Source of the DNA: Glandiceps talaboti
Lineage: Eukaryota; Hemichordata; Enteropneusta; Spengelidae
DNA: 64,000 nucleotides
Reading direction: 5' to 3'
Assembly: GCF_964340395.1 (NCBI RefSeq)
Contig: NC_135571.1
Location: 8,555,453-8,619,452 of the forward strand
The notes below the pieces were generated by a model, which was given only the letters and a program-made list of their open reading frames with translations, was not told where the DNA came from and searched no databases. Positions within the stretch are counted from its first letter, which is position 1. Every line of letters begins with the position of its first letter. Below, one piece after another: positions 19,306-63,480 of this stretch. A program made the translations under genes and the position numbers.

Positions 19306-19502
19306 ATGCCGAAAAGGAAAAGAGGTACGACTTCCACGAAGCGGTCCTGTCTTATCCATTGGTTTCGGAAGGGGCTCCGTTTACACGACAACCCAGCTCT
19401 TCGGGAAGGTCTTCTCTCATCAGGGGTAACGACTTGGCGGTGCGTTTACATTCTTGACCCATGGTTTGCTGGTCAATCTAACAGAGGAATAAACAAATGG
19501 AG
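19306..19502 (+). CDS. CRY: CRY exon 1
   Basis: First ATG in frame; the frame is open upstream to a stop near 19135 without another ATG. Encodes residues 1-65, with a basic N-terminus then [19 protein letters not shown] and [11 protein letters not shown]. Donor AG|GTACGT, phase 2. Confidence 0.9.
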
Positions 19503-20221
19503 GTACGTAACATTTTCTTACGAACTCGTAAACGGTAAACCCATGTTTGCGAAATCATTCGCCTGTAAGTTTGTCGCCGAGCATCTGGTCAGTCCTTGTT
19601 AATGTTCATTTTTTAGTCTTTCCATGTTTTCTCAGTGTTCATGGAGAATGAATTTATTGTTATTTCGAAATTTGTTCACATTTTTTAAAGGTTACAAAAA
19701 ATGTACATGCGATCGCGAGTAGAATATAACACATTGTGTAAGACTCACGCCTACATGTCTTACAGTAAACTGTCACGCGTTTACGTAACCTGCATCTGTA
19801 CAATGTATTCGTTTTCTGTCGTTGTATCAAACGCTTTCATGTTATTTCTAAAAACAAACCCAACCATTACAAAAATTGGCGAGTATTTTCATCAAAATTT
19901 AAAAGATTTGATAGTTCGGTTCATGTACAAGATGATATGGGGTTTTTTTTTACAGACATTATCTTCCCTGTCTGATATATGTTGTTTACGACTTGCGTCA
20001 TTAAAAAATGATAATGCGTTCTCGTTTCTAACCGCCTGCGTTATTGAGCTCCGAATTTTTCTGCTCGTTCTGGATTCTTTCAACCCTGGGTATTAGGATT
20101 TTACAGAATATTGAAAATCGTTTTGTTGACGTCAGTTCAAAGAAATAGGAAACGGTGAGATACACCTTGCAGAAAGTCAGCTACATTTTTTGCCACTTTG
20201 TTTATCTCTCTCCCTCCCTCT

Positions 20222-20301
<80 letters not shown>

Positions 20302-23300
20302 TTTATTTACCTATGTATCTCTGGTTATGCCATACTATGTAAACTTAATATTTTTGTCGCTAGAACATTTTGTGATTTTAACAGTCTCTCGCTAGATCGC
20401 AAAGACCGATTTTTTACATTAAATTTATACGAGAGTGAGACCGTGGCACCGTGTGTACATGAAATGAAGGAATTGTAGTCACTTCGTAATAGTACATGTA
20501 TTCATATTTGCGTTTTTCTTGTCCAGCAAAATAAGCAAAAAACAAGTCTTCGTCAAAAAATTACTGATAGGATATCTGTATGTTATCTTGTGGTACAGCT
20601 TCTTGAATTATGTATCCCTTGTCAAATTGTCAGAATGGAGTCCCGGCTTACTCCATCTGCAAGCTGGACTGATTTATTCTACGGAAATGAAAAAAATGTA
20701 CTTGATTAAAAGCAACTTGTTCGCTCACTGTGGATAGAATTTGTACCATGTTAAATTACCGCAGTTGGTTAACGTATTGTGTCCCGTGGTCTAGTGCGTG
20801 TGTTGTGCTGCATTGTCAAACATGTGACTATCATGTGGTGTGGGTATCATGAATACAAGTGTATACTACAGACTCTCCCAATGTTGGTGGAGGGTCTATG
20901 TGCATACAAATAATGATAATATTTGTGATTAGGATAATTCAGAAAAGGAAAGATTGCTTTTTTGACTAATTTTGCAAATTAAGACAGTTAAATTTTAAGA
21001 CATAGTTGATTTAGGTTTTCTAGTTTCCATGATGGATTGCTATATGGATGAGGACTGGGTATTTATTTTGGAGTTTTAATGTATAAAATAATTTTATCAT
21101 GGCTATATGGATGAGGACTGGATATTTCTTTTTGATTTTTGATTTATAAAATAATTTTATCATGGCTTCCTATTATAATGACTTTTATTATCTAGAATTT
21201 AATTACAAAGTGGGTGACCCTGCAAAAGTGTTATTAACCCAATCTAGCAAAGGACAGTAAAGACCCTTATAAGGAATGATTATTTAAATTAGTAAGATAA
21301 AAACAGTTCAAAAGACAAATATACAACAAAATGTTTTGCAATCAAGCACCTGTATACGTACACAGAAATCACAAGGCAGTGAAGCTATTACAAGATTGCC
21401 ACTGACTGGAAAATATCCTTATTGTTAAGCAGGGGTTCTCTGAGCAATTTTGAAAAATGAAGGGGTTGCCTTATTTACTTACTAATTTGCATATCATTAG
21501 CAAAGCTGCACATTTTAGATCTTAAGATTTGAGAATGAAAAAAAAAACATTTTCAACATTAAAAATCTTCAATTAGATTCTTATTTTTGGCAATGATCCA
21601 TTTAGCAAATGAGAAAAAAAAGTATAAAGAAAATTTCAAATTACTTCAGTTCAACAATTTCAAACTTTAATAATAGTATAATTCATCATGGCAAAACAGA
21701 GGGGTAGCCCCACAAACAGAGGGGTGCTGCATGAAAAGTTAAACAGGGTGGTGCACCCCTCAATTTCAAAAAACCCTCATAAAGAACACTGTTAAGGTAT
21801 ATCACTCATTACCAATACAGCCAACAGATGTGCATGTTTCCTATATGTTTTCTAACCAATCAGAATAAACCATATAAAGTGCTTCACATTATCTGATTTC
21901 AATTAAAAACATACAAATAGTTGGTTGTAATTTAATTGTCCACGAGTCGCCTTTTACCCCAGACCCTGGCTATGAGAATAAAAGAAAAAAGAAGTGCATT
22001 TTAATATTGTATCAGATAATCTCAGGAATATGTCTGGACAGATTTAGATCAACAATTTGTACTGACTGCGAGAATAAACAGCCTCTTATTTCCATTTCAC
22101 GATCGTAAATCGTGGTACAGCATATTCCTTTCATAACCTTGTTTTATGTGACCTTTGTAAACAACATAGCGGGGTTACTCATAAATTCAAGTCATTTGCA
22201 TAAATTGAATGTCGTGGGAAGTCATGCTCCTTTTATCACATCAAACAAATCTGCTTATTCAGTTATTTGAAGAAATTGAAATTTTTTCCCATCAAAATTG
22301 AATTTTTCTGACAAGTTAAAATCTCACTCTGCAAAGTTTGGCGGTAAAGAAGTCCTTGGATTGAAATAAACAACATTTTACAGTGTACACATTTACATGC
22401 CAGGGTACATGCATGTAGAAATCCTTGAAGAGCTTTATATTGGTTATTCATGAATGCAAATTAGCAAGGATGTAACCCCAATTGCTGTGACCCCCTGAAG
22501 ATTACCATAAACCTAGGGGGTCTTTAATCAGCCTTCCTTATATGGTATTAGGTTTTCCATATAAGTCTCTACTACCTTCTGAAGTAATAGTGTACTAAAC
22601 CTATTACATGTATTTTAGAGCCATTACTTTATATGTCACAATCATCAATTATATTCTTGGTATTTGGAAAAAAACACGATTTATTTACCCTGGAAATACG
22701 CAATGTTCATTTTATTTGCATTTACTCGTTAAATTTTCAATACTGTAGCCTTCCAATATCATTATGCTTGTAACAATTTGCCCTTGAACTATTAGACTTC
22801 AGTGCTAAGTGTAATCCTCTGATTGGCATTAATTCACTGGATATATAAATGTATTCACCTCTTATTGTTTTCATACCCTACAACTCTGTAAGGTTTATAG
22901 GACAATAACTGGTCATTTTCAGTTTAACAGTCTGAACTGATTAAGGTGCAGTAGTACTACATGTATAGGCATGATCGATCTGAAATTTGGTTGAAACGTT
23001 CTTAGGGGTGTTTAGATTAAGAATTGTTCATGACAATCCCATCAGTGATATGCAAATTAGTTATAAAAATGTGTCTTTTAGGTCAAAAATCCTTCAAAAC
23101 TACTGAGCAGCTTAGGCTGAAATTTGGTTGGAACATTCTTCAGGGTGTATATATTTAGAATTGTTCATGACATGATGATCCCATCATTGATATGCAAATT
23201 AGGGCTAAAATGTGTATTTTTAGTAAAAAATGTATAATTCCACAATTATTGAGCAGATTAGGTTGAAATTTGGTCGATGCATTCCTAAAGGTGTTTAGAT

Positions 23301-26300
23301 TAAGAATTCTTCATGGCATGATGATCTCATTAGGCATGATGATCTCATTAGGGATATGCAAATTAGGTCTAAAAATGTGTATTTTTTGTCAAAAATATAT
23401 AGATCCAAATCAGGGATGGGTAGGTACTCTAGATGAGTGACTAAAGATTCAAAAAAATGTGTGCAAATATGCCTAGCAACGGGACCACACCCATAGCAAC
23501 AGCTAAATATTGCAAAGATGAAAAGTGGGAAGGGTATTCGAGTTAATAAAAGATTCCATAAATGTATGCAAATATCCCTAGCAACAAGACCATGTCCATA
23601 GCAACAGTCAAACACAGTTATGCTACATTGGCACTATTTTTAATTCTCAAGACGATTTTGCGATATATTTTCCAATGTGAAATAGGATTGACCAAGTCTG
23701 TGTTTAAAACTCAGTAGTTACAAAAAAGCTAAAAAGTGTAAAAAAGTTTGTCATTGTACATTTTACCTCCAATGTTTATATAGAGTAAAAACTTTTTTTG
23801 TCAATTAGAGTTACATTACACAGAATTTTTCTGTGCTATTCATTTGATTTAAAAAGCAAAGTGAATACCAATTTTTAGGCCTTAAAAAAATTGCGTGGGT
23901 CCGATTACGTTCAATTTTAGAATAGGGTCGGGTAGGTAGATTTTTAATTTAATTTTATTACATTTGTATATATTTTTTTCTGTGCGAGTGTCTAGGTCAG
24001 GTGTTCCATTGTTTTCCAAATGGTCTCTGTGTTGTTTTTTTCATCCTATCAGATGTACAGCCATTGCAGATTGGAAAAACAGTTTTAGAAGGTCTTTTCA
24101 AGTTGTTGGCAGTTTCTGCATTCACTATTTCTTATCAGACTTCACAATTTTTGCAATTTTATTATTGAAAATTTTAAAATATTTAATAAAAAATAAGGGT
24201 CGGCAGTGAAAAGCTAGGTGGGGTCGGGTCACCAGAACCAAACAATTATTTTTTTTTTTAGGCCTTAGCAATAATCGCTAATTAACATCGGTTGTAGTTG
24301 TTGGACAACAGTGTATGCGCATGTATGTAAGCGACCCATTGTAAAACAATGGGTAGTCGGCTGTCAAACGCAGGCTGAACACATCAAAGTTCTGAGTGAC
24401 TGGTAAATTTTAGAGGGGCGACAGCAGCAGTTTAATGGAAGCGGGAGCAAAATTTAATGGGGGTGTGCCGCCCCCTTAAAAGAGCCTGTGGAGAACACTG
24501 ACATCTATTTACATTTCCAGCTCGCATAAGTTAATTTATTTTGAAATGAATTATATTTTTCAGGTTCCTGTTACAAAGCCTTGAAGATTTGGATGCTAGT
24601 CTTCGGAAGTTGAATTCACGTTTGTTTGTTATCAGAGGTCAGCCTGCTGATGTTTTGCCAAGACTTTTCAGAGTAAGTTACAGCTTCTCTCCGTCATATT
24701 ATGCATGTCCAAATGAAGTGCTTTTAGGGACAACGTCACTATCAAGTGCGCTGTAAAAACGTGTAATGCATTACATCAGGTCTTGTGACTAGTCAAGATG
24801 GAAAACAGGAAATAATGAGGTGTTAGAATTCAAAAATAACAATAACGTCCATTGACAAACATAGCATTGATATCACTCCCACATTGAATTTGGTGTATTA
24901 ACATGACATCAAAGTAACACTTCAAATCAGCTGACACATTATGTATAAAATGACGAGTGATCACATGACTTTGTATACAGAGAATGGTTGTGCATTCATT
25001 TGCATATCATTTGCATACAGGTATGCAATAATATTTACAGTATTTGAACTGCAATGTGAATACCACTAGTATGTGCACTCACCAATACAAGTACACATGT
25101 ACATGTAATTGCTGACAGTAATATACATAACAATATTGAAAACTGACAATGTTGAATTTATCTCTTCACCCAGCAATGGAATGTAAGTCGCCTATCCTTT
25201 GAAACAGACTGTGAACCATTTGGAAGAGAACGTGACTCGGCCATCAAAACACTAGCAAGTGAAGCTCATGTGAAGGTCATCTCACGCTCATCACATACGC
25301 TGTATGATCCTCTTGAGTAAGTCAAGTCTTCATTACATATACACTGTATGGAGTATGAATAAAAAGATGTTTCTAGTCATTACAACCACAAACACATCAA
25401 AATCATGGGCACAAAGGTGGGGGGGAGGGAGACTACTCCCCTTATTTGAGTATACGGAAATGTGTCGCCCTTTGGGGTGTGTGGTCTAAAATGGAGTCTT
25501 TTTTTCCTCAGTATAGTGGTCTTGAGTTTGACGATAAAATAGGGAATTTGCAATCCAGACTGTGCATGCTCAGATGCAAAGGACTATGGGATTGTCTGTG
25601 GTCTCTTTTGTATTGGGGATTTGATTAGTAACAATCTTTTTTTTTGTTTTCTCAGAATCATTGAATCAAACGATGGTGGTCAGATGTTGACTTACCAAAG
25701 ATTCCAAAATGTACTTCAGTCGCTACCTCCGCCTGCCTATCCAGTTGATCCAATAACCTTTGACGTTGTCGAAAAGCTGTACACACCCGTTGAAATCGAT
25801 CATGATGACAGATTTGGCGTTCCTACTCTGGAAGAACTAGGTAAGGGTGACTTTTTCATTATAATCTGTTTCTTATGATCATGTCAACCTACACATCTAT
25901 TTTAATAAAGATTGATAGTATGTTGACGACAGTAAGGGATAATTGTAGAATGTCACAGAAGCTCAAAAAGCGAACTTTGTTCTTTATGGGGGAAGGGGTC
26001 TGGCATCAATGTTATTGCTGAACTTCACACTTTTAACCAAATTTCGAAAATGTGCATGTCTTCAAATGATAACAGCTTCTGTATTTACTATTGAGATGTC
26101 GATAAGTTTTTAAAAGATAAAAAATTTACTTCTAATGTGAGATACATTGCACTGTGTCTCCTGTAGTATTTTGATGCATTTACCATCTCCGTACATAGGT
26201 TCATAAGGTTGGAACTTCATACCATCATACTTTTACATTGCATCGATCGTAGTGCTGTGACCCCAACAGATTTCATCATGGTTTACATCATATGTAAACA

Positions 26301-29300
26301 TTTAATGTGACACTTGTGAACTTTCGTTTAGGGGAAGGGGTTTTGTTCTAAATGAACGTCCGTTTATCTAGCCTGTGTGACATTGTGCAATCGTCCCTAA
26401 AGCATGTACTATTTTTCATGATCCTATATTTGTTGAATACAATTTTTATTCAAAATAATGCCCTCTATGGTCACATCAGGAAATGGTAAGTTGGTAAGTA
26501 TTTTTTGCCAAAACTTGAGAGTGAATGAATGTTCAGGACCTTCAAGTCAAATTAGTAAGAGGATCTATCAGATTCATTCATCAGAATGTACGAATAATCG
26601 CAAGCATCGCCAATTTGTACTCGCATAAATATTTTTAGTTTCCAACGGGCGAAGCACGGACAGAACTACTACTTTGGGTCCCATAAGTCCATTATCACCT
26701 GTATCTGAGACTTGTAAATTCAACCAAACCTGGCACAAATGTCATACATGTAGTCGGCAACAATTTTTGCATGTCAGTTTGTTTCGCTACCTCCAGGATA
26801 ATGGCTGAATTCAAATTATTTTGCCATTGACAAATGCATTGATAAAACTGCTTATGAAATCTTGCAAACTTTACATGATGTTTAGATGTTTTCATTTAAA
26901 ACCAAATTAATGTATACAGCTGGGTACGTTTAGTTCAGTGGAGTTTTTGCCATTGAAAACTGTATTGATTCGTGAAATGAAAATTCTATATTGTTTTCTA
27001 GCACAACTGAACCAGTAAGGTTGTACTGGGATTGCCAGCTGTATCCATTTGGTATATAACATTCTGATGTTTTCATTTAAACCAAATGGATACAGCTGGC
27101 AATCCCAGTACATCGACAATCTGAGTGCATGTAGTCATAGTTGCCTAGGGTCAACATTGTTGGAAAGAGATTCCTAGTATTGCCAAGGGCAACATTTGCA
27201 TGTTTTACCTAAGACTGCTATCAATCAATCAATCAGTGAATTTTTTAAAGCACCCGTTTCCACTATAATGTAGAGTTCAGAGGCGCTGTACTTAGAATGC
27301 TCTGGAGAACAGATATGTCTTTAGGTTCTTTTTAAAGGAGTTAGCTGTTGGCTTTTGTTGTATTTCCAGTGGCAGTGCATTCCATATGTGGGGTGCAGCA
27401 CGTGAGAATGCACGCCCGCCATACGACAACATTGGGTTCGTGCAATAAACTTTCGGCAGTTGATCAAAGTGTCCTGGGATTTGGCTTCAAGTGAATTAAG
27501 TCAGATATATAGATTGACGATAGTCCATTCAGAGATTTGTTAGTGATCAATAGCAGGTTATATTTGATTCTATCCTGCACTGGTAGCCAGTGGAGCCCTT
27601 TAAGGATCGGTGTTATGTGATCATATTTTTTGGCCCGCATGATGATCCTTGCTGCAGTGTATTGTGCATGTTGTAGTTGTTTCAAATGTTCATTAAATAT
27701 GCAATAAAACATGCATTTCCGTAGGCTACTGCTACTGAGAAACAATCTAAGATGGGAATTCTCCTACACGAACAGAAATGTCAAGTAGATCTATTTACCA
27801 GTCTGTGAATATCCAGGTAGTATAGATAATGTACATTGTAACCGATTATACTGATCCCTAGGGCAGGATATGAATATTTTACCATAAAGACTGTGCTGGT
27901 GAGAAACGACCACTCCCACACGAGCAGAACAGAAAGGTCAAATATGTCTGTTTACAAGTCTGTGACTATCCAGGTAGAAATGTAATCGATTAGACTGATC
28001 CCTAGTATTGTCGAGGGCAGCATATAAATATTTTACGTATCTCTGTGCTAGAGAAAAAAACAATCCAAACACGAACAGAAAGGTCAAATCTGTTTATATA
28101 CCAGTCTGTGACTATCCAGGTAGCAATGTAATCGATTAGACTAATTCCTTAGCATTACCCAGGGCAGCATATAAATATTTTACCTATCACTGTGCTAGAG
28201 AAAAAACAATCACAAAAATATATACACAGATGGGAAATCTCCACAGACGAACAAAAAGGTCAAATACGTACATTTGCCAGTCTGTGACTATCCAGGTAGC
28301 AATGTAATAGATTAGACTAATTCTTTAGGATTACCCAGGGCAGCATATACTCGCAGATCAGTACACCGTTATAGTATTGCTCCAGATCGGAGCGAGGTAA
28401 CGACTTTAGTTTTAGATAAAACGTAGCAAAAAAGGCACGAACACAGTCTATGTTTATGTCTGCCGAATGGCAGTGTTTCATCTGAACCTGAGTAAAACAT
28501 GCAAGGGTCAAACTGAAGAGTGAGGTGGAAATTATCATAAATTATGATTTCACTTCAATTCAATCAATTCAATAACTTTATTTATCCCAAATGGGCAATT
28601 CGGTTTGGCAGACATAATATCTACACACAAAAATTTAAAAAAAAGAAAAAGAAGACAACAGTTCAAAGCAAAAACAAACAAGATAAAAGGTTACAGGACA
28701 AATCACACTACAATGAGAGTATCTAAAATGTTTTGTTTAAAAGCCGCATAGCGCATGGTATGAAAGAGTTCTTATGCCTGTTTGTCCTGCAAATTGGGCA
28801 TCTAAGACGTCTACCAGATGGAAGGAAATTGAAATATAACTCTATGGTCTTGTTTGTATCTTTTATCTATAGGCTTTGATATGGATGATATACCACCTGT
28901 GACATGGATTGGAGGAGAAACTGAAGCTAAAGCCAGACTGGACAGACATCTTGAAAGAAAAGTAAGTCTTGTGTAACAAGATAATCGGACAATTTATGAA
29001 AATTGCAGGGAATTGAAATTCTTCTTTTGGTTGGTATGAAAATGTTATTGTGCAAATTTATAACAGAGGAATTCCTTTAAAAGTGAGTTATTTAGCATCA
29101 GACTATTGTACATCTCAAACTTTTCAACTTGACTTGTGTAGACTAGCATCCCTCTAGCATTTGTTAGCTATTATGAAGGGTGATTACAGTTAAGATCCAG
29201 GCTACTTAGACTAGCATCCCTCCAGCATTTATTGTAGCTATTAAGCTAAGAAGGGTGATTGACCTGTTGTCGGTTCCAAGATGCAAGGTGCTCAGGTGTT

Positions 29301-32300
29301 TGCACTCACTCAGTGGGATGGTTGTCACCTGACCGTACCCTGGGTTCACCGGTAAAATCCCTCTCTGTCATTGATGGCGTTTAGTCTTTGTTCTATAAAA
29401 TCACTCATAATCAAAGAGGTCAACATGTCTTTCCATCATTTCCTGATGAAAATGTTATTTCAAACATAATAAAGACAAAACAAGACTAAACCTAACAACA
29501 CAAGTGACTTCCTCTCGAGCAATGCATCTTGGAACAAGAAAATTGACTATTCCAGCGAATGACACTATGCTAACAATGTATTTTGGAATATGAAAAACAA
29601 TTGGGTTAGATGTTGGCCAAGTGTTTTTTACTACCATTATTATTTGTCATGTATATTGGACCAACCCCATTATGCATTGTTTTCAGAAAATGATGATGAC
29701 GTAGTGATCTGTACATATCAGGGCTCAAAATTAACAGTAGTCTCATGTCCACAGACTACCAATTCTTGTCATGGCGCTACCAGAATTTGTAGCTGGTAGC
29801 CCACTCAGGCTACCACTAATTATGAGATGAAGGTAGAAGATTTAAGGACATGAAAGTATTTAAATAACACACACATTTCCAATACAGGAAACCTGTTTTC
29901 AGTTCAGGAATATAGGACTACAGGCCACAATCCCTGGGCTACCAATTTCTGAAATTGGTAGCCCACTAGGACTACCAAAGAAAAAAGTTAATTTCAAGCC
30001 CTGCATATCTGTACATGTAAGCAGAGAGATGGACTGTTCATCAATGTTGATTTTCCTCAGCGTCTCAGGTTTCTGCCTGCTTTGAAATTAGAGAGCTGTT
30101 CGATGCAACCATTCAACAAATCTCCCAGCTTTTACTTGGACTTGTATATGTGTGTGTGCTATAAGTATGATATGTATATTGATAGTGTGATTTCATCTCT
30201 ACAGGCTTGGGTTGCTAATTTTGAAAAGCCAAAGATGACACCACAGTCATTGGTAAACACAAACACAGGACTGAGTCCATATCTGCGGTTTGGCTGTCTC
30301 TCAGCAAGAATGTTCTACTGGAAACTGACTGAACTATATAAAAAGGTAAAGCTCTAATTTTTTTTCAATATTACCAAATAACTGTTAATGTATAGCACAA
30401 CTGAAGTGTGTGTGTGTCCGTGCGTGTGTGTGTGTGTGTTTACAACTTAAACTCAAAATCCCCTTGACTGGTTGCCTTATATGGTAGGGACATTACTTTT
30501 GGCATCTAGTTGGGAAATTGTTCAAAGCAAAATGATTTCTTCACAGGTATATGATTTGGGTCAAAAAAAATATCATTTTTGGTCAAAAAACTGTAATTTC
30601 AAAACTACCAAGCAGATTGGGCTGAAATTTAATGGATATAACACAAAAATGTAAAGAAATTATTTCAGTTCAATAATTTCAAACTTTAGCATAGTTCATC
30701 ATGGCAAAAATAGAGGGGAGGGGTGGCCCCACAAACAGAGGAGTGAATAATGGATAAATGGATATACAATATCATGTCTGGTAGTGCAGAATTTTTCTTT
30801 TTGACAAGGTGTGAAGGAGCAACAATCTAAAGGTTTGCCCTTACGGAAGGCATTCAGTTAATATCTGGTTAACGTTTTCACATATTGAAATTGTGCTCGT
30901 GCCTACCACAGTGGGATGATTATCCAAAATTGGAGTGTATAAAAATATACCTACATGCAGGTAGTAATGATGCATTTACTTTGCTAATGAGATTCGTGAA
31001 TAAAAAAGGCAGATATACGCAGCAGGCAACAATTATAAAGTACGTCATAGCTGGTATTAGAGAGCATTTTATTACCGAAAATAAGTAATTACGTTCTGTA
31101 TAGCACGATTGCTTTTGGGGATTACCAAAAAAATCTCATTTGGAGAACACTATCTATAGATACTACATGAATATACATGTAACTGCAATTTTTGAAAGCT
31201 TTGAGGCCATATTTCACGTGTTTGCACTTGTGCATGCCACAGTGGGGTGGTTATCCAAAATTAGGGGTACCCTCAAACAAATTTACAATGTGGCACTTTC
31301 AGAATCGAAGTATGAAATCACACATCTACATGCAGGTAGTAATGATGCAATTAATTTGGTGATGGGATTCTTGAATATCAACATTTCTGAAAAAAGACAG
31401 ATATACATAGCAGACATGAATTGTAAAGTACAGCACACTGTAGAATATTTTACCCACAACTCTCTCTGATTTGTACTGTTGGACATCATCTCTAAGAATT
31501 CATCTTTTTGTGAATTCTGTGACGTCAGTTGAGGTTAACGTTTTTACAGTATCTAAAATGGTGGACTCTAATGACAGTTACGATGAGTTGAAAATACGCC
31601 AAACTCCACTTTTGCAGAAGCTCATATGTCAGCTACATTTTATTTATGATGTAGTAACAAATGGATATGCAATATCATGTCTGGTAGTGCAGACATTTTC
31701 TTTTTTACAAGGCTTGAAAGAACAGCAATCTTAAGGTTTGCCCTTACAGAAGTCATGCAGTTTAGATCTGGTAGAAATTTGCCGACAGATTTTCTTGAAA
31801 GATATGCATGTTTGTTACTGACTTTTATTTCTAATGAAACCACTGGGATTATTTTCCAAAATTTGGGTGTATAAAAATATGAAATCGTGTGTCTACGTGC
31901 AGGTAGTAATGATGCATTTACTTTGCTAATGGGATTCGTGAATACAAAAAGTAGATATGCGCAACAGGTAACAATTGCAAAGTACGTCATAGCTGGTATC
32001 GAAGAGCATTTGATTACCGAAAATAAGTAATTACGTTCTATATAGAGCACGATTGCTTTTGGAGATTACCAAAAATCTCGTTTGGAGAACACTATCTATA
32101 GATACTACATGAATATACATGTAACTGCAGTTTTTGAAAGCTTTGAGGCCATATTTCACGTGTTTGCACTTGTGCATGCCACAGTGGGGTGGTTATCCAA
32201 AATTAGGGGCAACCTCAAACAAATTTACAATGTGGCACTTTCAGAATAAAATCGAAGTATGAAATCACACACCTACATGCAGGTAGTAATGATGCAATTA

Positions 32301-48736: not shown

Positions 48737-48795
48737 GTACGCCGTGATGGAGCACCCTCAAACATCGGCCAACCCTTAACACGTGTGAGAGGAGG
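48737..48795 (+). repeat. Dispersed repeat shared with 12199-12258
   Basis: See similarity TAAGGTACGCCGTGATGGAG, AAACATCGGCCAACCCTTAA. Confidence 0.5.
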
Positions 48796-50140: not shown

Positions 50141-50466
50141 CAAAAACAAAAGATTCTAGAGTTTGGCCACTTGGAGTGCTGTACAACTGACTATGCCATA
50201 GCATTATCAGAAAAACAAAAGATTTCATAGTTTGGCCACTTGGAGTGCTGTACAACTGACTGCCATAGCATTATCAGAAAAACAAAAGATTTCATAGTTT
50301 GGCCACTTGGAGTGCTGTACAACTGACTATGCCATAGCGTTATCAGAAAAACAAAAGATTTCATAGTTTGGCCACTTGGAGTGCTGTACAAATGACTACC
50401 ACATTAAATAAGTTATCAGAAAAACAAAAGATTGTATAGTTTGGCCACTAGGAGTGCTGTTTGCTT
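50141..50466 (+). repeat. ~66-72-bp minisatellite, five copies
   Basis: TTATCAGAAAAACAAAAGAT, TTTGGCCACTTGGAGTGCTG, TACAACTGACT repeat; the central copies are nearly identical, the outer ones diverge. Located ~3.4 kb after the CRY stop. Confidence 0.9.
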
Positions 50467-51445: not shown

Positions 51446-51553
51446 TACTGCCATGATCTTTTCCTAATCAAGGGCGCCCTCTTGTGGCACAAATTGTAAG
51501 TCTACTGCCATGATCTTTTCCTAATCAAGGGCGCCCTCTTGTGGCACAAATTG
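51446..51553 (+). repeat. ~50-bp direct duplication
   Basis: CTACTGCCATGATCTTTTCC, TAATCAAGGGCGCCCTCTTG, TGGCACAAATTG occurs twice in a row. Confidence 0.9.
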
Positions 51554-53930
51554 GTAAGTTGATAATATGGCAATATGCAATGTTCACCTGTTAAAGTTAG
51601 CCTTGATAATCACCATGGTGATAGTCTGATTCTGCTTCATTGAAAGTGAATTAGGATTGCGATTTGTTATTTATCTAGAGTTAATTACTGTCATATTAAT
51701 TAGATATTAATTAGTCTTCTAGATCCATTGATTACGTACATGCTAATTAATTTCTAGTATACGAGCACCTAATTATCATATCAACTTGAGTCAAGTTCAC
51801 ACCATTTTCAGTATACAGGTCTTTTTCTTTGGAGAATTTAATTTGGAATTCAAGTCATTAGCATGTAATTAATGAATTAATTAATAGCAGATTCATGGCA
51901 GTCAAGTGGTTAGTGACTTTTTAGAATCAGCAAGTAGTCAGTTTAGTTATCATTACTGCTATTGGTTTCTAAATAAACTAAAGTCCTTGGCCTAGCTTTA
52001 AAGGTGATTCAAAATGCTCACATGTATTCTTTCACAATGTTGTTGAGTTTTATTCACCTGTTGACTACGCTCGTCTTAGGCTACGTGCTAACCATATCTC
52101 CTTATGACGTCATAAAATCCTGTGGTCTAGGTGTGACCGGAAATATCCGAAAACTCTTGAAGTAAATCCGAAGGGAACTGACTGAAAAAAGGTCATTTTA
52201 AGGTGTTTGCAGACACTTTTTTAAAGTTTTAAAACCAGAATGCGTTTCACTAACATGTCGTCTAGCAAAATAGCAATAGTGAATGTGAGCATTTTGAATC
52301 ACCTTTAAGTGGCACAAACTGAGTTGATATATTTTGGGGATGTAATATTCTCTGTGTATTAAATGGTACTCATAGTATTATATTTACTGATGTATACTTA
52401 GCTATCACTTGTAATTAAAAGGTACTCAAAGTATTCTACTTACTGATGTATACTTAGCTATCACTTGTGATTAAGTGAATTCAAACATGGAATTAGTAAA
52501 AGATTATAACAAATCTGATGATGTCATTTATCATGCATATCAAAAAGCGTGCAGGAACTCCCTATTATGCAATCAACAGTTCTAAGACTGTCAGAAGACA
52601 AATTGTAATGTCATACAAGGTATGTATCAAAATTTTAATTCCAAGAGAATTTTTTATATGTATTTTCACATAAGCTAAAAACTTGTGCCAACATTACACC
52701 CTAGCTATAGCCGTATGATACAAATTGGGGCCTGGTAGAACAGAGGTTGCTATGTGAGGGATTTAGTCCTGTGTGTTAATAGAGACTGCAATGCATGGAT
52801 TATATGAATCAAGGGAGTTGAAGGAGCAAGGCGATTGTGCCACTCTATGTCTGTACCACAGGCATCGATTGTTCAGCATTTTGAGGACCCAGGCAAGGTT
52901 TTTTAGCATATATCATCCGAATACACCACTGTGACTGTATGTTACTACCTACATTATTCAACTTAGGAAGTTAACTCTTTTAGCAAGATTAGGTTAGGAT
53001 CAATTCGCTTATGAATGTTAAATTTTGGGAACAAAATGCTCCTAAAATTTAAAACTTAGAGCAAAGTTAAATAATATATATCAAACTTCAATTCTTATCA
53101 ATATTCAGTGTGAAATATTTCATGTTTATCTCTTGAATAAAAATAATCAATTTTGTTGAATGACTACATTCATATTAATGCAAATAAAAGGGTTCCTCAT
53201 TATCATGAAAAGTCTATATTCAATTGGGCTTCAAAATGTGTGCATCGAATGCAAGTAAAGTTGAAATTCTACCTTTTAAATGCCAGTAAATTTAAAAGTC
53301 ACCTGCTGAAGGCAGGTATTTAAAAATTTTCACCTGAATTGGACCATTTATCACCTGCAAATCCTAGTAATTACTAGCAACTTCCTAGGCTGTTAACTGG
53401 GGATTCACCATGGGCATGTAGTTTCAATGACACAAGATATTAAGTTCAGTGAGACTGACCACGAAGTTTGATAAAATAAACACAATATAGACAACAGAGA
53501 ATGACACCACATTTTAAAATTGGTCCATAGTCTAGTCTGTGTAGTCCATATGAAGTTTGATATTTGAATGTTTGAACATGTACTATCTACCATGGATATG
53601 TGCTTTGTAATTCATGCATTGCTATCTTTATTATGGCCAGTCTTCACTGAACTTAACACCCTTGCTAATCAAAACCACATGCCCTTGGCAAAACCCCTGT
53701 ATTAGTATGAGCACAATTAAATAAGTGAAATAATGGTACAATGCTGTAGTCATTAGATTTTAACTTTACTATGTATGTCAACATTTTAAAAATGAGCCAT
53801 TTCATCCATTAACCGAACAGTAATGTTGATGTTTATGAGGTAACCAGAAAGACAAAAGATTAACAAATTTGACCACTGGTGGCGCTATTCAGAAATAGAT
53901 CATGACATACGAGTTGTGAGTTTGAGGAAG

Positions 53931-54043
<113 letters not shown>

Positions 54044-54433
54044 CTGAGTTATAAGTAATTACAATCTGACCATTTTAGTGATCTATCCCCGTTCACCATC
54101 CTATGCGAGTAACCCAGTACAAACATATTATTTTTGAAGTTCAGATAACTACAATTACTGCAAGTTCAACTACCCACACATCCACGTGGCCGCGTATTAA
54201 ACAGCGCCCTGGATATTCATGCGTGTACCTCAACTTGAATTCTGTTTATCACATCATGTTGTTATTACATTTTCGAGTTTACGGAACGTTAATACTAATA
54301 GTTTTCCTGAAATAATGTACGATTTACTCTATGGACGGCAGTGATGCCGAAAGGCGATTTCTCGATGGTACGTTGTCTATATACAGGAGGAATTAACAAT
54401 AGACAAGATTGCACACAACAGTTCGGTGATATA

Positions 54434-54464
54434 ACCATGGAAGTATCACGATGATACTTCCATG
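54434..54464. repeat. Small hairpin CATGGAAGTATC
   Basis: 54436-54447 pairs perfectly with 54453-54464. Same core as 12602-12631 and 18789-18817. Confidence 0.7.
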
Positions 54465-55590
54465 ATATTACACAGACAATAATGTCACGCACACAAGGGT
54501 GATAATATGACTCTTGACCATGTTTATACCAGAACGAATATTCGAGATAGTCTTACGCAGTACAATATACGCTACCTACACTGTACTAAACACTCGGCAA
54601 TGGTTTCAAGTTCCGAAATGAAGTGAACTTATTGTATCTCTACACACATTGTTGTGGTTTACCAGTAGCTGCAACAATTGTAGCGTTAGTTGTGATTTTG
54701 AGGAGGTTTTCTTCTGTGTTTGTGCCGGCCCCTTTTCGCTACAATTCCTGTATTAACGTTAACGCACATAATCGGAAGCAGATGTGAATCGCCAAGTTCA
54801 GTTGATTTTTCTGCTAAATTAGGCCTTACCTGCCAAAAAATTTCCTAACTCCGACATTAATTACGAAGCCTTAATGACCCGGAAATCCCGTCAAAAGTAG
54901 CAACGCATGCAAACGGGTAACATGCACGCCGACATAGTGGATGCGACATCTCGCTGAGTTTGTCCAGTGTGGGAATAGTACCGTTTGCTTCCAAAATAAA
55001 GCACAAAAAACAGAAGAAAAACCCCTCAAAATCACAACAAACTCTACAATTATTGCAGCTAGTTTTCCAGGTACTGTAGGAAACTAATTACACTGAACTG
55101 GCTTGAATATTTTAGTCTTTTCGACATGTATAGTACTACTCCAAAATTCCCTTATGCAATACACTACGAAGCGACACAGTTTCACTCCGACCAACAATGC
55201 CGCGCCTGAACGGCAGCGGAGGAGGTCATTGCGAATTGAATGAACAACTGGGCATATAAAGATTGTAAAAAAAACTCACAGTTATGGTACCAGTTCCACG
55301 GCATGTTCGGGCGGTGTCTTCCGCTTCTTCCCGAGGAATAGCTTCAGGGTCGGCGACTAGAACCATTATTGACCACGGCGTACAAGAAATGGAAAGAATG
55401 GCTGCCGACCGGCCATGTTGCAATTTCATGAATCTGCACGTGCACGTTACATTTTTAAGTTACAGGTGGATACGGTACATCTGATTGGTCGATAACTTGC
55501 AGTGGAAATGCGCACACATGAATAATAATAATAGAAAACAAAGGTATAAAATAAAGAAATAATGAGGGCGCCCTCTAAATTAAACGGCTT

Positions 55591-55842
55591 AATAGGGAAC
55601 TTGCAATCCAGACTTAGCATGCTCAGACGCAAAGGACTGTGGGATTATCTGTGGTTATCGTAATACCTAATCTGGAGCTACCGATAAAATTAACCTCACA
55701 CAATGGTCAGGGTAACTATGAATTGATTATTTGTGGTTACAAACAATGTAAAAATACCGTTTACAATACTAATTGGTTAGTATTTATTATCACATTTCCC
55801 ATGATGCAACATTCAACATGGCGGGTTTACAAGTTCCCTATT
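55591..55842 (-). mobile_element. MITE family A, full-length inverted copy
   Basis: AATAGGGAACTTGCAATCCA to GGCGGGTTTACAAGTTCCCT ATT, the reverse orientation of 688-928. Both ends are intact, giving the clearest terminal inverted repeats of the family. Confidence 0.85.
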
Positions 55843-58108
55843 ATTAGCCTTTGTTTTTCGACCTTTTTTGTTATGTTTTTTGTTTATCCTGTGGCACATC
55901 TGAGAACAACAAATCGGAAACAAAGGAATGCACGAAAGGTAAATTAAATAAAGCAAACGTGTATTCTCACATCAGATTTTGATCAGATGGTGATTATAGG
56001 GGGGGGGGGGGGCTTATATGCACACACAACAAAGGCCACACTACAATCCACTATACTTGTGTAATCTACCACATCACAACAATAGTCTCAGTAAGCCGAA
56101 AGCTTGGTTTCCACAGTGGTAGGTCAAATAATTGCAGGCTAGATGAAATGAACTGTCCACCCATCCAAAGCCCATAGGCATACTTTGTTAATACTGCACT
56201 TGAAACTAGCCCGTTACCAGGGTAACATCCTTACGCAGATTGATACAGCATTATACATTCTATCACCCTTCTTCCTCACAATATAAAACCAGACATTATA
56301 CAAGTTTGCATCTACATTATCCATAGAGGTCGTATATTTTTACTCATGATTTGCGAAATACATTAACCAACATAGGTAATACTGCCTTTCAGGCCTAAAA
56401 GTTTCCTAATTGAAGGAAATTGCCATTGAACTCACAATCTCTGTACTTCTCCATGATTTACACAGTAGCTGGCCGTTGGTGGTGCTATTGCAGAAAAGCA
56501 TTCATACTACATATTTGCCATTGATGACACTGCAAACGAAGTTACTGTTCACATAAATTTTGTTTCACATTGCTAGAATGTTTAACATTTCAGCCAGTCA
56601 TTCTTTCCCTTTTCTCAAAATTTCTAAATCAAGATGAACTTTGAAAACATATGTAGAATTATTTTAAATTTTCACTCCTTGTTACAATATATAACCTGTT
56701 TTCGCTGGAAATACAGAAATGGTGAGTTGATGCTCGACTATAAAAATTACAGCGTCAACCACTGAACAACACTTTGATTACGATTAGCAAAAGAAATACA
56801 GAAAATGAAAGAGCCTTGGGCAAATAAGAACGCGTTACAGTTAAAAAGGAGACGAGGAGAGACAAACAAACGGTGGCTATTATAATTTGGCGATAAAGGT
56901 ATGATTCAGGACCCTTTATCATATGACAACGAAAGCAAGGACCACAGTATACATCAATCTGTGTTAGGTATATACATGGAATCTTTTGATGTAAAATCTA
57001 CTCTACAAACATAGTACTAGATGCAACCAATCTCCATTTACTGCATCAATGTATTGACGACACACAGGGTAAACTAGCTCCAAAAAAATATTACAGAAAA
57101 ATATGGTGGAGAACAGGTAGTGAATACTATACTACCCATATTTTTTTTTAAAGTTTTACATTTCAATTGAGTACCACCATTGAAATACATAGAAGTTTGT
57201 TATGTATGTGTTAGTTAACTAATAACTCCACTGTAATATTGAACACTTTCCCGCCAAAATCATCCAGTCAAAAAGTTTCCCGCCAAAATTATTGATCAAC
57301 ATTTAAAAAGTTTATTTGCCTAAATTTTGTACAATTTTCCCCTCATCTTCATAATTTTTATTAAATATTTCACCACATTTGGTGGTAAAATATACAATTA
57401 TGATTAGGCTTAGGTTTTTTTCTAAAAATTTTCATTATTTTGGTCAATAAAGTTGAGTACTTTACTAAAACATAATTTGTATTTTGGTAGAAGGGTTCCC
57501 AATTTGCTGACAATATGGCCGACGTGTTCAATACCAGCTAGAAGTTCATCCCCTATCTATAATGGGGTTTAAAGCTAAAAGAAAAAACCCAAAAGTTTCT
57601 AATTTTTATCTTTATTATTTTTTTTTAATATAAAAAGTCTTTTTCCATCTGATGGAGGCCAGACTTATAGTTGTTATATGAATGGAATGCACTGCTAGGC
57701 ATGCAAATTATTTTTAATCTCTTTTTTCAAAATTTTAAAAATTCCCAAAAAGCAAAAAAAAATTCCCAATGTCAAATAAATCAACCAGCCTGGAATGTCC
57801 CTATTTGTTTGTTTGTTTGTCAGTATCATTCCTGCTTTTCTCAGCTGAGAATCATTTTCAAAACAACCAAAATATTCAAATTCTTGCCGACTGTAGCTTG
57901 ATAAATAAGATATTTTGACAGTAGCATGCTTTAATTCACTGCCATCACCACTGTACACATAACAGCCAATCTTCACTATCTATGCACACGACTGAGGTAG
58001 CAAAGTGTCACCTATTCCTCTCTGTACTGATGAAAAAAAATCATTCTAGACTTTTACAAAAAAACAACTAAAACTACAAGTCACTTGGGTAATTCCTTGC
58101 TACTTGGA

Positions 58109-58395
58109 GTCTATCCTATAAGGGCGTTATTCCAACTCAGTGGCTATCCTGTGAGGGTGTTATTCCAACTCAGTGGCTATCCTGTGAGGGCGTTATTCCT
58201 ACTCGATGGCTATCCTGTGAGGGTGTTATTCCAACCCAGTGGCTATCCTGTGAGGGTGTTATTCCTACTCGGTGGCTATCCTGTGAGGGCGTTATTCCTA
58301 CTCGGTGGCTATCCTGTGAGGGCGTTATTCCAACTTGGTGGTTATCCTGCGAGGGTGCTATATCTCGCCTCATGTCTGTCCCATGAGGGCGCTAT
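58109..58395 (+). repeat. 33-bp minisatellite, about nine copies
   Basis: CTATCCTGTGAGGG.GTTATT, CC.ACTC.GTGG repeats with exact 33-bp period. Because 33 is a multiple of three it stays open in frame on both strands, giving an apparent 11-residue protein repeat, but no gene signals surround it. Confidence 0.95.
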
Positions 58396-60605
58396 TCCTG
58401 TGTGCTTATCTAACCTGCAGAGCTACGACATTTGGTATTGATTGGCAAGTCAATGCATTCAGTCAACATGAGAATGGACTGTGTAATGTTGTAAAGTTAC
58501 AACACAGTAGTAACAGGTGAATATCTAATATTACAGGTAAACACAAATAATACAAATAACTTCAAGGTCAATATAGCATTCTTGAGCCTAAGAATTGGGT
58601 CCATATAGTATTTAATAGTATAGTAATATAGTATTTATGGGCCATTATAGTATTCACAGGTCAATATAGTTTTCACTACTAATAACCTTTGATGGCTAGT
58701 TGGTAAATAATACTTAACTGACGGTACCAAGTCAATATACTGCAGTGTTAGGGGGATACAGTATTGAAAGGTTAATATAACATTTATTGACTTATATAAA
58801 CAGGATACATTGTTCCTATATAAAGATAATTGTATTTTTTTTGTATTATTACATAAGACAGCAGCATGATGTAGTATAGATTGTGAAAACTGCTTAATTC
58901 CCCCTATTGGAGAATAGTTGCAGCCATCATCCCTATGGGGATAATAGTTTCATCCCCCACACACTGAAGAACAGTGTTTCATATACAGCCAGTACAATAA
59001 TGGCTAAAATACAAGATTTCGATTCCAGTTTTGTTTCGATTTCTACATAATTATTAGTTATATATGTAACTAACTCCTCAAGGTAACCTTTGCATTGATA
59101 AGTCTTAAACGTAAAGCATCTAAACGAAACCGACCTGAATAGTTACTTTAATAAATGTTTATTTCTATGGGTAAATAATTCAAAATTGTTAATATTTACT
59201 AAAACTGCGGTCAAGGCCATTAGTGTACACTGCAAATTATCATCGCAATTATTAACCTAACAGGTTTTATATCTGCCACATATTTTGGATGGCATACTCT
59301 GAGAGGGCTCTGCACCAATCAATGATCTCTATCTATAACCTTAGATTGTAAAAGGTATACTCTGATTGGACATTGCTGATCACATGATTAACATAACAGT
59401 GTATTTGTTTAGCATGGCTTTACCAAAGTCCATTTGTAATAATAATCACCAAAGTATTAACAAGACAGGGTCTATATCTGCCTAGGACTGTTTGAGAGAG
59501 GTATACTCGTTAACAGGAAACGCCACTGACAGCAAGACTATTAATTTGTCAGGGTCTATTTTAATATACCAGGGTCTAGTTTGGCTGGAATAGACATTTA
59601 AGATTACACTAGTGCAAGCACTGCTATTAACAAATATATATGAGTGAAAAAGCAGGGGCTTAATTTGGTTGTTTTGGGAAGTAAACTCTACAAAAACACA
59701 ATGTTAACCTCATTACAGCTTATAACCTCTTACACTCAGTAAAAGAGATCGATATCTTAAAATCTAACCAACATAAAGCTGACTATAAAACGAAACAATA
59801 CAGTGCTTGTGTTAATGTGGAGATAAAACTGTCAAAAAACTTTCATAATTTGTAAAGTATACATACAGATATTGAATAAAAATCATCTGATTTCGGGAAA
59901 ACACTCGTCAGCTGTTCAGTGTAATGTTATACTTAGTAGTTGAGAGTGACTTTTTTTTTTATTTGAAAGTCTGCGACACTGTGAAGTGGTTTAAAAAGAA
60001 ATGACAAACTGTCACTCAGCATTTACATATACAATGATCTTCTACCAACTGTATCTCTTAGCCTGTCTCACGCTGTGCTAAAACTACCTACGAGCAGCAA
60101 GTTTCTCTATTGATCCAGTGTAATCTTTCACTCCCTGATGTTTTAGTGTACATTTCACCAGTGGTGTTTTAAGTAGAGTCTTCAGGATATCAACACTGTG
60201 GGATATCTAATCTGGTATAATAAACAAAGTTGCAATTTTGTATTGTGTTCTAGTTGCTAAATTAACATCAAATGTTAGAATTGTTTGTTTACCATCTGAG
60301 TGAAGTGAGATCAATGGAGAAACTTGCTGCTAGTAGGTAGTTTTAGCACAGCTTGAGACAGACTAAGAGATATAGTTGGTAGAAGATTGTTGTACCACTA
60401 CAAGTTGTTTTCCATACTAGCCGGCCAGACTTGTGTGACGAGCTGATGTTAAAACCTAAACTCATTGGACATATGTGAGAGACGTTTCCCTTACTTCTCA
60501 CATATTACTGGCGTTACATGATGCAACTGCGAAGACAGCGATTTTTTTCTGTCCTCTGATGTAACTAAATCTATATACATGCATTGATGCGGTACTGGTG
60601 GTTCG

Positions 60606-60844
60606 TTACTGGACATCCCAAATCTCAGCGAGTAACGGTGGTATTTGCTGATCTTGGAGCTTGAGAGCAAAGAGCATCTCAGAGTGACTGTTATTCAGAG
60701 TACGGAGCTCTGTGAGTTTCATCAGTACTTTTGGCAATACCAGAGTGTCTTTTGGTTTTTTCATCTTTAGACGTGTACGTAACATATCCAAGTACTTCTC
60801 CTGAATTGCCTCAACGGCTTTTCCGTCGGTCACCTGGGCACGAT
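60606..60844 (-). CDS. NR1H4-like: NR1H last coding exon (helices ~9-12, AF-2)
   Basis: Acceptor TGATTTCAG, then DRAQVTDGKAVEAIQEKYLD, KPKDTLVLPKVLMKLTELRT, FALKLQDQQIPPLLAEIWDV, Q and TAA at 60608-60606. Phase 1 acceptor fits the preceding exon. Confidence 0.9.
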
Positions 60845-63480
60845 CTGAAATCAGAGAAGGGAATCATTCTAATGTTTTCTGCTTAAACGATGTGGCTTCT
60901 AATATTGTAATATAACATACTAGACCATTAGACCCCAAGACTGCTTTAATTTGGCTGTATGCGAGCAATGACGGAATTTTTGGATATTCGTGACCAGCTT
61001 CATGAGACGCAATCTGTGAAGAATTCTATTGCAATACAATTTTTTGCATGTCAAATTAACAGGTTCACAGTATACTCAAATTGAATCCTGTTTTTTCCAA
61101 CTTGTAGTTTTTTGTGTACAAACAAAACCCCTCTCCCTTTCTGTTACCGGGGTTCCCATGTCATTTTATCTGGGTTCCCAAACAAAATTACCATAAACAC
61201 TATGGGGAAACACTGCTATTGTTACCCTTTTCTCCCTTTTCTATTACCAGGGTTCTTAGCAAAAACACTGAATATAACAAAATTGTTATTTTTCATACCT
61301 GCTGAGAAAATGACAATGGCCATGAGGAGAGTATAGTCTTCATAGTCCAGTTCAAGGTCAACCATACTACGAGAAAATTCATACATTGGATCCACAATAT
61401 CGCCAATCCCTCCATCACAGAGTTTGTGTCGCGAGTATGGCAAACCGTTTCCAAAGATGATGGCGTCATCTTCTCGAACGTACCTCATTGCAGCACGAAG
61501 TAGTAGTACTTCAATGGCTGAGCCCTAGGGACAGAGAAAACTCAAAAACTCAGTGGGGTATAAACATGCAGCTTTTCAACTATGGAAACTTATTACCCTG
61601 GTAACTGAACCTTTGATTTTCTAAGATAGACACAAACTAAAACTATTGTCACAACATGTTGACACAGTACTGTTCAGGATGTACAATACTATTAATAAGT
61701 CAATATAGCTAACAAATCAGTTTCAAAAACCAGTCCAGTTGTAGCTAGCGCAGCTTTCAATGGGGAACTTGCAAACCCGCCATGTTGAATGTTGCATCAT
61801 GGGAAATGGGATAATAAATGCTAATAAATTAGTATTGTAAACAATATTGTTACATTGTTTGTAACCACAGATAGTCAATTCATAGTCACCCTGACCTTTG
61901 TGGGAGGTTTATTTTATCTGTAGCTCCTGATTAGGTATTACGATAAACACAGATAATCCCATAGTCCTTTGCGTCTGAGCATGCTAAGTCTGGATTGCAA
62001 GTTCCCTATTGTAAAACAGATTTCTGTGTATCAAAGAGTATCATTATTGGCATTGATGTAGGATTGGTATTTTTATTCCAACATGATCAACCCGACTTGT
62101 GCGTTATCATTACCTTGAGTAGGACAATTTGGTCTTCTCTTATCAGATCTAGAAATCCTGGCAACTTCTTACTGAACTCAACAACCAGCTGTACCGTCAG
62201 AATAGTCAGTTCTGTGATGTGAGCAAATCGATTGTGTAGTTTTTCTTGCTCTGTTAAATGATCATCATTTTCGGAAGGCCACGGCTGGAGAGGTAAAAAC
62301 AAAAGAATTTGCATGAGTCAGTCATAGTACGGGAAATGAAGGGCTGGGAAAATGCAAATAGTCTGATGATCCCACCACTGCCACCAATGTCTCAAACTTA
62401 ATTTTTTTTCACAAAAATGAATGTCTGATGATCCCACCACTGCCACCAGTGTCATATTCTTAAAGTGGAATACTACTCCATGAAATCAATTCACTTTCAT
62501 AAACTAGACATGTAATGGTTCTGGAGAGTCATTCATGATGTTACATCACCTACAATTACTTGTGATTTCAGAGAAACATCAAATTGAGTTTTATAGGGTA
62601 TTTCTGCTATGGGCCTCATGGGAGTCAGCAGAAATTTATTCATGGTTGAACACAGAATATTAATGTCTCCTAAGTGCTTATTCCCTTCAGTGTAAAACAT
62701 GAATATTCATTGTTCAACCATGAATAATATTATAAGGGCATTCCCCTTAAATGCAACTTTTATTTTTACAAATATAAACAGTCTGGTGATCCCACCAATG
62801 CCACCGCTGTCTAATGATAATAATAAGATGATTTGTAATGCGCCTCATCTCCGAAGAGCTCGAAGCGCAGAGGAAGAGTGGATACAGAAATAGTTAATGG
62901 AAATGTGAATTCAAGGTAATGTGTATTAAATAAAATGAGAAAGAAAAACAGTTATTAGCAATTGAAGAGGTGAGTTTTGAGAGAATGTCTGAAGGTTGAC
63001 AAAGATTTGGAATGGCGGAGATCAAAAGAGAGGTGGTTCCATGAAGTAGGGCCAATGTAAGAGAAGGATCTTTCACCAAATGTTTTGGTTGACACCCTTG
63101 GAACACAGAGAAGACGAGAATCAGAAGACGAGCGAAGTGGTCTTCGAGGAATGTATTGATGTAGAAGATCCATGAGATATTGTGGGCTAATACCTACAAA
63201 TGACTTGAAACAAATGGATGAAATTTTGTATTGAATATGTGAAGTGATAGGCAGCCAATAATACTTACTGTAACTTTTTTAATATCTTCAGGGCCAGGTA
63301 TTTCCAAGTCATGCTGTGCTTGTACAATCTTGTCGATGAGTTCTCTCTGTTCCTCAGAGAGTTCAAAATATTCATTTTCACCATCTTCATCGACACTTTG
63401 TTGTGGTTGTTGAGGACTGGTATGTTGTTTCAGCATTTTACGTTGTCTCTTTGATTTGCATTGTTCCTCTGTCAGAAGAC
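60606..63480 (-). CDS. NR1H4-like: FXR-like nuclear receptor (NR1H group), hinge and ligand-binding domain, 5'-partial
   Basis: Minus-strand exons 63480-63269, 62284-62114, 61524-61299 and 60844-60606 join in frame (281 residues plus a split codon). The hinge LLTEEQCKSKRQRK closely resembles FXR just after its DNA-binding domain. Next come a Gln/acidic linker, helix 1 SEEQRELIDKIVQAQ, PWPSENDD (an LXR-like feature), and the LBD signature VVEFSKKLPGFLDLIREDQI-VLLK. KGSAIEVLLLRAAM is FXR-like. ELDYEDYTLLMAIVIFSADR and KLTELRTLNNSHSEMLFALK follow. Helix 12 PPLLAEIWDVQ is an intact AF-2 coactivator surface. NR1H receptors act as RXR heterodimers sensing sterols, bile acids or ecdysteroids; the ligand here is unknown. 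The DNA-binding domain lies off the right edge. LXR or EcR is the alternative. Confidence 0.88.
61299..61524 (-). CDS. NR1H4-like: NR1H LBD exon (central helices)
   Basis: Acceptor TGTCCCTAG. Encodes GSAIEVLLLRAAMRYVRED, IIFGNGLPYSRHKLCDGGIG, DPMYEFSRSMVDLELDYEDY and TLLMAIVIFSA. Donor GTATGA, phase 1. Confidence 0.9.
61759..62010 (+). mobile_element. MITE family A, copy in NR1H intron
   Basis: AATGGGGAACTTGCAAACCC to TTGCAAGTTCCCTATT. Intronic, between the two LBD exons, antisense to the gene. Confidence 0.85.
62114..62284 (-). CDS. NR1H4-like: NR1H LBD exon (helices 2-4/5, LBD signature)
   Basis: 57 codons, phase 0 on both sides: PWPSENDDHLTEQEKLHNRF, AHITELTILTVQLVVEFSKK, LPGFLDLIREDQIVLLK. 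Acceptor ACCTCTCCAG, donor GTAATG. Confidence 0.9.
62359..62814 (+). repeat. Three scattered copies of a ~33-bp motif plus a foldback
   Basis: GATGATCCCACCACTGCCAC or close variants occur near 62365, 62426 and 62784, the last directly beside a LINE tail. TTATTCATGGTTGAACA (62638-62654) is mirrored as TGTTCAACCATGAATAA near 62710-62727. Confidence 0.6.
62815..63258 (-). mobile_element. CR1/L2-like LINE RT C-terminal fragment in NR1H intron
   Basis: Minus-strand YWLPITSHIQYKISSICFKS, SPQYLMDLLHQYIPRRPLRS, TFGERSFSYIGPTSWNHLSF and STFRHSLKTHLF, then 3' UTR and an (AAT)n-type tail at its left end. 5'-truncated. Its 5' junction is ~10 bp inside the intron from the NR1H donor at 63268. Confidence 0.85.
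63269..63480 (-). CDS. NR1H4-like: NR1H hinge/helix-1 exon
   Basis: Acceptor TTTATCACAG, then LLTEEQCKSKRQRKMLKQHT, SPQQPQQSVDEDGENEYFEL and SEEQRELIDKIVQAQHDLEI, ending KKVT. The acceptor is phase 1 and needs a preceding T to give the Cys of FXR's ECLLTE. Donor GTAAGT at 63268-63263. Confidence 0.88.

Follow-up and report, generated by a model that had tools for sequence, protein, structure and literature searches.

Predicted cryptochrome, NR1H receptor and R3 receptor phosphatase genes of an acorn worm follow the order of their relatives on human chromosome 11p

In the list of genes given from telomere to centromere for a deletion of human chromosome 11p, CRY2 is followed later by NR1H3 and later still by PTPRJ (PMC4199189). 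The same order is found in the acorn worm Glandiceps talaboti, where a predicted cryptochrome gene (CRY), a gene for a nuclear receptor of the NR1H family and a putative receptor protein tyrosine phosphatase (PTP) of the R3 class succeed each other on contig NC_135571.1 (C26, 15.96 Mb) of an assembly of 590 Mb in 47 contigs. The first two genes are located in the stretch of 64,000 nucleotides analysed in this study (C26:8555453-8619452), which we refer to as the window, and the third is found beyond its right end, where features are numbered in extended window coordinates above 64000. Three families are arranged alike in both genomes, although on human 11p many unrelated genes are interspersed, whereas none was recognised between CRY and NR1H in the acorn worm, and although the human NR1H gene of this region encodes LXRalpha, whereas the receptor described here is not specifically an LXR (PMC4199189).

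Among vertebrates, CRY1, CRY2 and CRY1B, the last of which was lost from human chromosome 1, are derived by duplication (PMC4558521), and CRY has been assigned, along with families such as MYBP and DGK, to a single paralogon (PMC6298421). The accessible text of the former paper, which treats CRY1, CRY2 and the vacated CRY1B locus, mentions NR1H zero times. In fish, arntl2 and ric8b are found near nr1h4 (PMC4062345), which places an NR1H gene beside genes of the clock system, as is the case here; unlike in the fish region, the BMAL and RIC8 genes of the acorn worm reside on another contig (C18), away from NR1H. For the EcR/NR1H receptors of molluscs, a protostome system, one NR1H gene is listed per genome (PMC4070562, PMC4388693), with no second one found in G. 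talaboti either, and the DNA-binding domain (DBD) of the oyster protein is nearer to human FXR (PMC4070562), in a division between this domain and the ligand-binding domain (LBD) that is similar to the one described below; linkage to CRY is unmentioned in the accessible text of both papers. The literature that we searched, including searches for microsynteny of cryptochrome and ecdysone receptor, returned no report of CRY-NR1H linkage in invertebrates.

The three genes and their arrangement

The cryptochrome gene has a coding span of 19306..46784 on the plus strand, which was defined by exon chaining, matches to PDB and Pfam, and exon lengths. Its 12 coding exons are located at 19306-19502, 24564-24672, 25174-25316, 25656-25840, 28873-28961, 30205-30345, 37383-37553, 37921-38061, 42485-42636, 43461-43663, 45921-46144 and 46755-46784, with respective lengths of 197, 109, 143, 185, 89, 141, 171, 141, 152, 203, 224 and 30 nt; GT/AG splice sites were read for ten introns, and the last exon of 30 nt was fitted at its position. 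The model comprises 595 codons including the stop, corresponding to 594 amino acids, and contains the Pfam domains DNA_photolyase and FAD_binding_7. In PDB, CRY1 chains rank first (maximum of 892 bits) and CRY2 chains second (maximum of 826 bits), followed by chain 6ptz, labelled 'Cryptochrome-1' (577 bits), the fly (6-4) photolyase (574 bits), the light-receptive chain 8p4x (455 bits) and chains of the kind of 4jzy and 4gu5, which we take to be fly CRY (392-398 bits). Identity to chain 4k0r, presumably mouse CRY1, amounts to 361 of 506 residues. By these comparisons, neither (6-4) photolyase nor type I CRY is as near to the predicted protein as vertebrate CRY1/2, and it is classified as a type II cryptochrome, in line with the first-pass annotation, which had described a complete type II CRY on this strand. 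One of two histidines at positions that we assume to be those of photolyase residues is replaced by asparagine, which is no more than suggestive of a CRY that would lack DNA repair and act as a repressor of CLOCK:BMAL.

The lengths of exons 2-6 (109-143-185-89-141 nt) match a set that is common to most vertebrate Cry1 and Cry2 genes and absent in Cry3 (PMC4558521), and this set is the discriminating part of the exon structure. Exons 7-10 sum to the 312-152-203 set of Cry1, with lengths equal to those of vertebrate CRY1/CRY2 except that the 312 nt are still split into unfused exons of 171 and 141 nt (PMC4558521). Intron 6 harbours tandem units of about 0.9 kb at 30756-34353, which are 85-90% identical to each other.

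The receptor gene is located on the minus strand and comprises a hinge exon (63269..63480, from exon chaining), two exons of the LBD (62114..62284, reading PWPSENDD...LLK, and 61299..61524) and a last coding exon (60606..60844), which ends in LLAEIWDVQ followed by the stop codon, a terminus that we take to be the AF-2 helix. Its DBD is encoded by exons on the same strand at 64939-64799 and 65421-65103, 0.8-1.4 kb past the window end, and the gene is thus incomplete inside the window; its first coding exon was not found. The protein contains the Pfam domains zf-C4 and Hormone_recep and matches a two-domain chain of LXRbeta in PDB with 350 bits, compared to 217 bits for RARgamma. With a C4 zinc-finger DBD, an LBD and top scores to LXR, EcR and FXR, it is assigned from its sequence to NR1H. 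Within this family, its two domains differ in their closest relatives. Among DBD-only chains, the DBD scores best with FXR (157 bits) and EcR (151 bits), whereas the LBD reaches up to 218 bits with LXR, up to 212 bits with EcR and up to 143 bits with FXR, at identities of 50-51% to two LXR, 44-52% to three EcR and 43% to FXR. In a tree of nine LBD rows, the receptor was grouped with EcR and FXR, the latter on a long branch, and apart from LXR, at a support of 85/91, which is below the threshold of the tool for a firm branch. Of the earlier description as an FXR-like NR1H, the family name thus holds and the likeness to FXR applies to the DBD but not to the LBD; with an LBD closest to LXR and EcR, the protein is predicted to fall outside FXR (NR1H4/5) and is properly named NR1H.

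A second NR1H gene was not found genome-wide, where strong matches to the receptor protein were the exons of the gene itself and other DNA-binding matches of at least 50 residues all showed identities of at most 59%. The protein searches of the genome were run exon by exon without introns and scored the best candidates only. A search for the nuclear-receptor family listed 40 matches, none of them on C26, and missed the receptor of the window itself, and an absent match is thus weak evidence. One open reading frame (ORF) in an intron of NR1H (63275-62958, minus strand) reads by eye like the end of the reverse transcriptase of a retrotransposon lacking long terminal repeats and has no Pfam match.

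The stop codons of CRY and NR1H are separated by 13,821 bp (46785..60605), in agreement with the tail-to-tail arrangement and the distance of about 13.8 kb given in the first-pass annotation. In line with the same annotation, no gene was recognised in this gap, with a codon-bias ORF scan giving three short weak segments only and two ORFs of the gap having no Pfam match. Another candidate, an ORF at 49664-49422 on the minus strand whose end resembles the last helix of NR1H, might have been what is left of an NR1H tandem duplicate; this was rejected, since the ORF has no Pfam match and since, across the 304 kb examined, the receptor protein finds no further copy. The gap holds a good copy (55591-55842) and a diverged match (49115-49277, about 75%) of a dispersed repeat of about 250 bp. 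This repeat is also present at 687-930, 42927-43178 and 61758-62012, with copies being 85-91% identical to the one at 687, and at least eight more copies are found in the right flank.

The next recognised gene to the right of NR1H is located on the minus strand and contains a single tyrosine-phosphatase domain (137378-134350), which was confirmed as Y_phosphatase by Pfam. Its FN3 repeats, the majority of which were recognised by eye, extend to about 232 kb, and both of two tested segments were identified as fn3 by Pfam; their join to the phosphatase domain is based on one spliced tail exon in addition to order and strand, and the last C-terminal exon was not found. Among single-domain chains in PDB, the phosphatase scores highest with PTPRB (334 bits), fly Ptp10D (327 bits) and CRYP-2 and PTPRO (313-319 bits), followed by PTPRJ (290-291 bits), PTPRH (267 bits) and PTPRQ (263 bits), compared to 253 bits for the best chain outside R3, whereas two-domain chains score higher when summed over two stretches, with up to 452 bits for PTPRS. 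We take the nearest chains (PTPRB/J/O/H/Q and Ptp10D) to represent the R3 class, and with FN3 repeats, one PTP domain and a putative transmembrane part, the neighbour of NR1H is classified as an R3 receptor PTP.

Origin of the gene order

We infer that the series CRY - NR1H - R3-PTP is probably the remnant of an inherited group that predates the split of hemichordates and vertebrates, since the presence of a third gene in matching order makes common inheritance likelier than chance. A trio of a type II CRY, an NR1H and an R3-PTP would have existed before both lineages parted, with CRY and NR1H remaining adjacent in the acorn worm and the human group having loosened on 11p11.2 and on chromosome 12. 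Human CRY2, NR1H3 and PTPRJ are spread over about 2 Mb of 11p11.2, and the counterpart on chromosome 12 shows a looser linkage. CRY proteins act as clock repressors, NR1H proteins as RXR-partnered receptors for sterol-like ligands and R3-PTPs as cell-surface phosphatases; the genes of the trio would act separately, and their linkage would reflect a slow loss of order instead of a shared control element. The proposal of the first-pass annotation that the linkage of CRY and NR1H predates the vertebrate duplications is thus strengthened by the extension of the order to R3-PTP as on 11p, but weakened by the lack of support for a larger conserved block.

Several observations weigh against such an inheritance. 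ATG13 and UTP20 are neighbours of these genes in human. PEX16 and NUP160 are contained in the 11p gene list (PMC4199189), and ric8b is found near cry1 (PMC4350181) in addition to its described proximity to fish nr1h4. Yet none of the six tested genes (PEX16, BMAL, RIC8, ATG13, NUP160 and UTP20) has a match on C26, and one larger linked block shared with human 11p and 12q is therefore not retained. In the genome search, the best matches were located at C18:19.05 Mb for PEX16, C18:19.65 Mb for BMAL (second on C13), C18:16.24 Mb for RIC8, C18:9.84 Mb for ATG13 (one weak match, E 0.0047), C5:24.07 Mb for NUP160 (with a second match above the cut-off on C1) and C13:14.04 Mb for UTP20. The best matches of four genes, including the weak one of ATG13, thus fall within C18:9.8-19.7 Mb, and the human surroundings correspond more to C18 than to C26. 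Further points concern the locus itself, where the R3-PTP starts about 69 kb past NR1H, in an interval that includes 7,500 N bases and in which a codon-bias scan gave four short weak segments only, and where the immediate left neighbours are lectin-like and do not correspond to human neighbours. Exons 6-9 of CRY (141-171-141-152) also equal the Cry3 set (PMC4558521), and this part of the structure is thus old or ancestral-looking and does not discriminate. Finally, the linkage was read in one invertebrate genome, and the CRY-NR1H pair was noticed post hoc, which weakens the estimates that, under the assumption of five R3 loci and a random arrangement of 25,000 genes, a given gene would flank another with a probability of 8e-5 and an R3 gene would flank the pair with a probability of 4e-4.

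An adjacency by chance, where the trio would have been assembled independently in the acorn worm and in vertebrates and where the loose human linkage would be owed to the size of the region, draws on the same absence of the six tested genes from C26, on the many genes that separate human CRY2 and NR1H3 (PMC4199189) and on the fact that the match was picked after the event. We consider it unlikely, although worth keeping in view, since the third gene, which lies outside the window and came to light once the pair was known, fits the order on human 11p.

The distribution of the tested genes is compatible with several histories: either an ancestral chromosome was split into C18 and C26, or the trio and the C18 genes were brought together in the chordate lineage, or the trio was relocated to C26. 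Published hemichordates have a chromosome number of 1N = 23, and 24 deuterostome ancestral linkage groups were described (PMC11175523), whereas in the present assembly a contig numbered 26 still measures 16 Mb. A group that had stayed together across such a chromosome change would point to a regulatory tie. It is in this respect conceivable, although doubtful, that the trio is a micro-block of at least the age of the deuterostome ancestor, which was kept while the surrounding chromosome changed and which would reflect a regulatory connection between clock and sterol receptor that is older than vertebrates.

Mammalian CRYs bind nuclear receptors, as was pointed out in the first-pass annotation. 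A functional linkage, either by a regulatory element of one gene residing in or beside the other, or by selection for co-expression via this binding, might explain why the trio is intact although most of the other tested genes are found on C18, as if it had moved as a unit. It appears improbable in light of a tail-to-tail arrangement that offers no shared promoter, a gap of 13.8 kb that carries a copy of a dispersed repeat, and a distance of megabases between the human genes. Most improbable is a recent local transposition of the trio or parts of it onto C26 in the acorn-worm lineage only, since, although C18 has the best match for four of the six tested genes and C26 for none, C26 also carries, far from the window, a probable type I CRY and two additional loci of receptor PTPs, and this contig thus holds relatives of the trio families along its length.

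Irrespective of the origin of the trio, the earlier claim that FXR and LXRalpha are products of the vertebrate duplications finds no support in the distribution of these receptors, as FXRs are found in various chordates (PMC2529310), Ciona has an LXR with a particularly close relation to EcR (PMC8222990), and cephalochordates contain ten NR1H genes (PMC7827873). From these observations, FXR and LXR appear to have parted earlier than the vertebrate duplications. To derive FXR and LXRalpha from one duplicated NR1H gene would thus require either that copies were lost after a stage with FXR and LXR in tandem, or that the receptor tree be revised. Human also has an FXRbeta pseudogene at 1p13 and LXRbeta at 19q13.

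Flanking sequence and related loci

Further members of the cryptochrome/photolyase family were detected at C26:1.95 Mb, C11:11.81 Mb and C8:0.29 Mb. For the locus on C26 (C26:1945676-1960779), two exons score 187 bits with 8p4x compared to 139 bits with CRY2 and 113 bits with the chains that we take to be fly CRY; being nearest to a light-receptive protein, this locus is probably a type I CRY, at a distance of 6.6 Mb from type II CRY. Other PTP loci are found at C26:0.23 Mb (43-72% identity by exon), C26:0.36 Mb (44-63%) and C24:11.03 Mb (69-80%).

To the left of CRY, the codon-bias scan identified a fragment on the plus strand (5275..5619), which by eye resembles lectin-like exons of the left flank and whose ORF (5233-5691) has no Pfam match. 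The 40 kb left of the window, of which 5,000 bases are N, contain several look-alike exons, and Pfam found among segments of this flank one pentraxin/LamG match and one F5/8-type-C match, which may reflect a locally clustered family of lectin-like proteins that are secreted. An ORF at 1529-2866 on the plus strand encodes a Thr/Pro-rich frame of 445 amino acids, is built from a 33-bp unit that is repeated about 30 times and has no Pfam match.

The mitochondrial contig (C40) contains three copies of COX1 exactly 15,435 bp apart and seems to have been assembled as a head-to-tail repeat. Its order reads trnM-ND2-(trnN, trnW, trnA, trnC, trnY)-COX1-trnS-trnD-COX2-trnK, followed by an ATP6-like frame, with protein genes except COX1 recognised by eye. 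The anticodon of trnK is CTT, ATA is found at expected Ile sites, the locus of 4.3 kb has a GC content of 53%, and the codon AAA is absent in ND2, COX2 and the COX1 frame after trnY. In combination, these features are in keeping with a hemichordate; a protostome (mollusc) origin, which the single EcR-like NR1H had brought into consideration, was dismissed on reading this contig.

Implications for the CRY and NR1H families

If the assignment to hemichordates is right, a linkage common to this animal and human is at least as old as the deuterostome ancestor. Should the trio not be ancestral, it would constitute an ordinary case of loosely conserved gene order. If it is ancestral, the locus would serve as outgroup to the CRY and LXR/FXR regions of vertebrates, would date their linkage and would help to decide whether FXR and LXR originated by tandem or by whole-genome duplication. 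The contact that is known at the molecular level between the clock and sterol receptors would in this case also become a question of gene neighbourhood.

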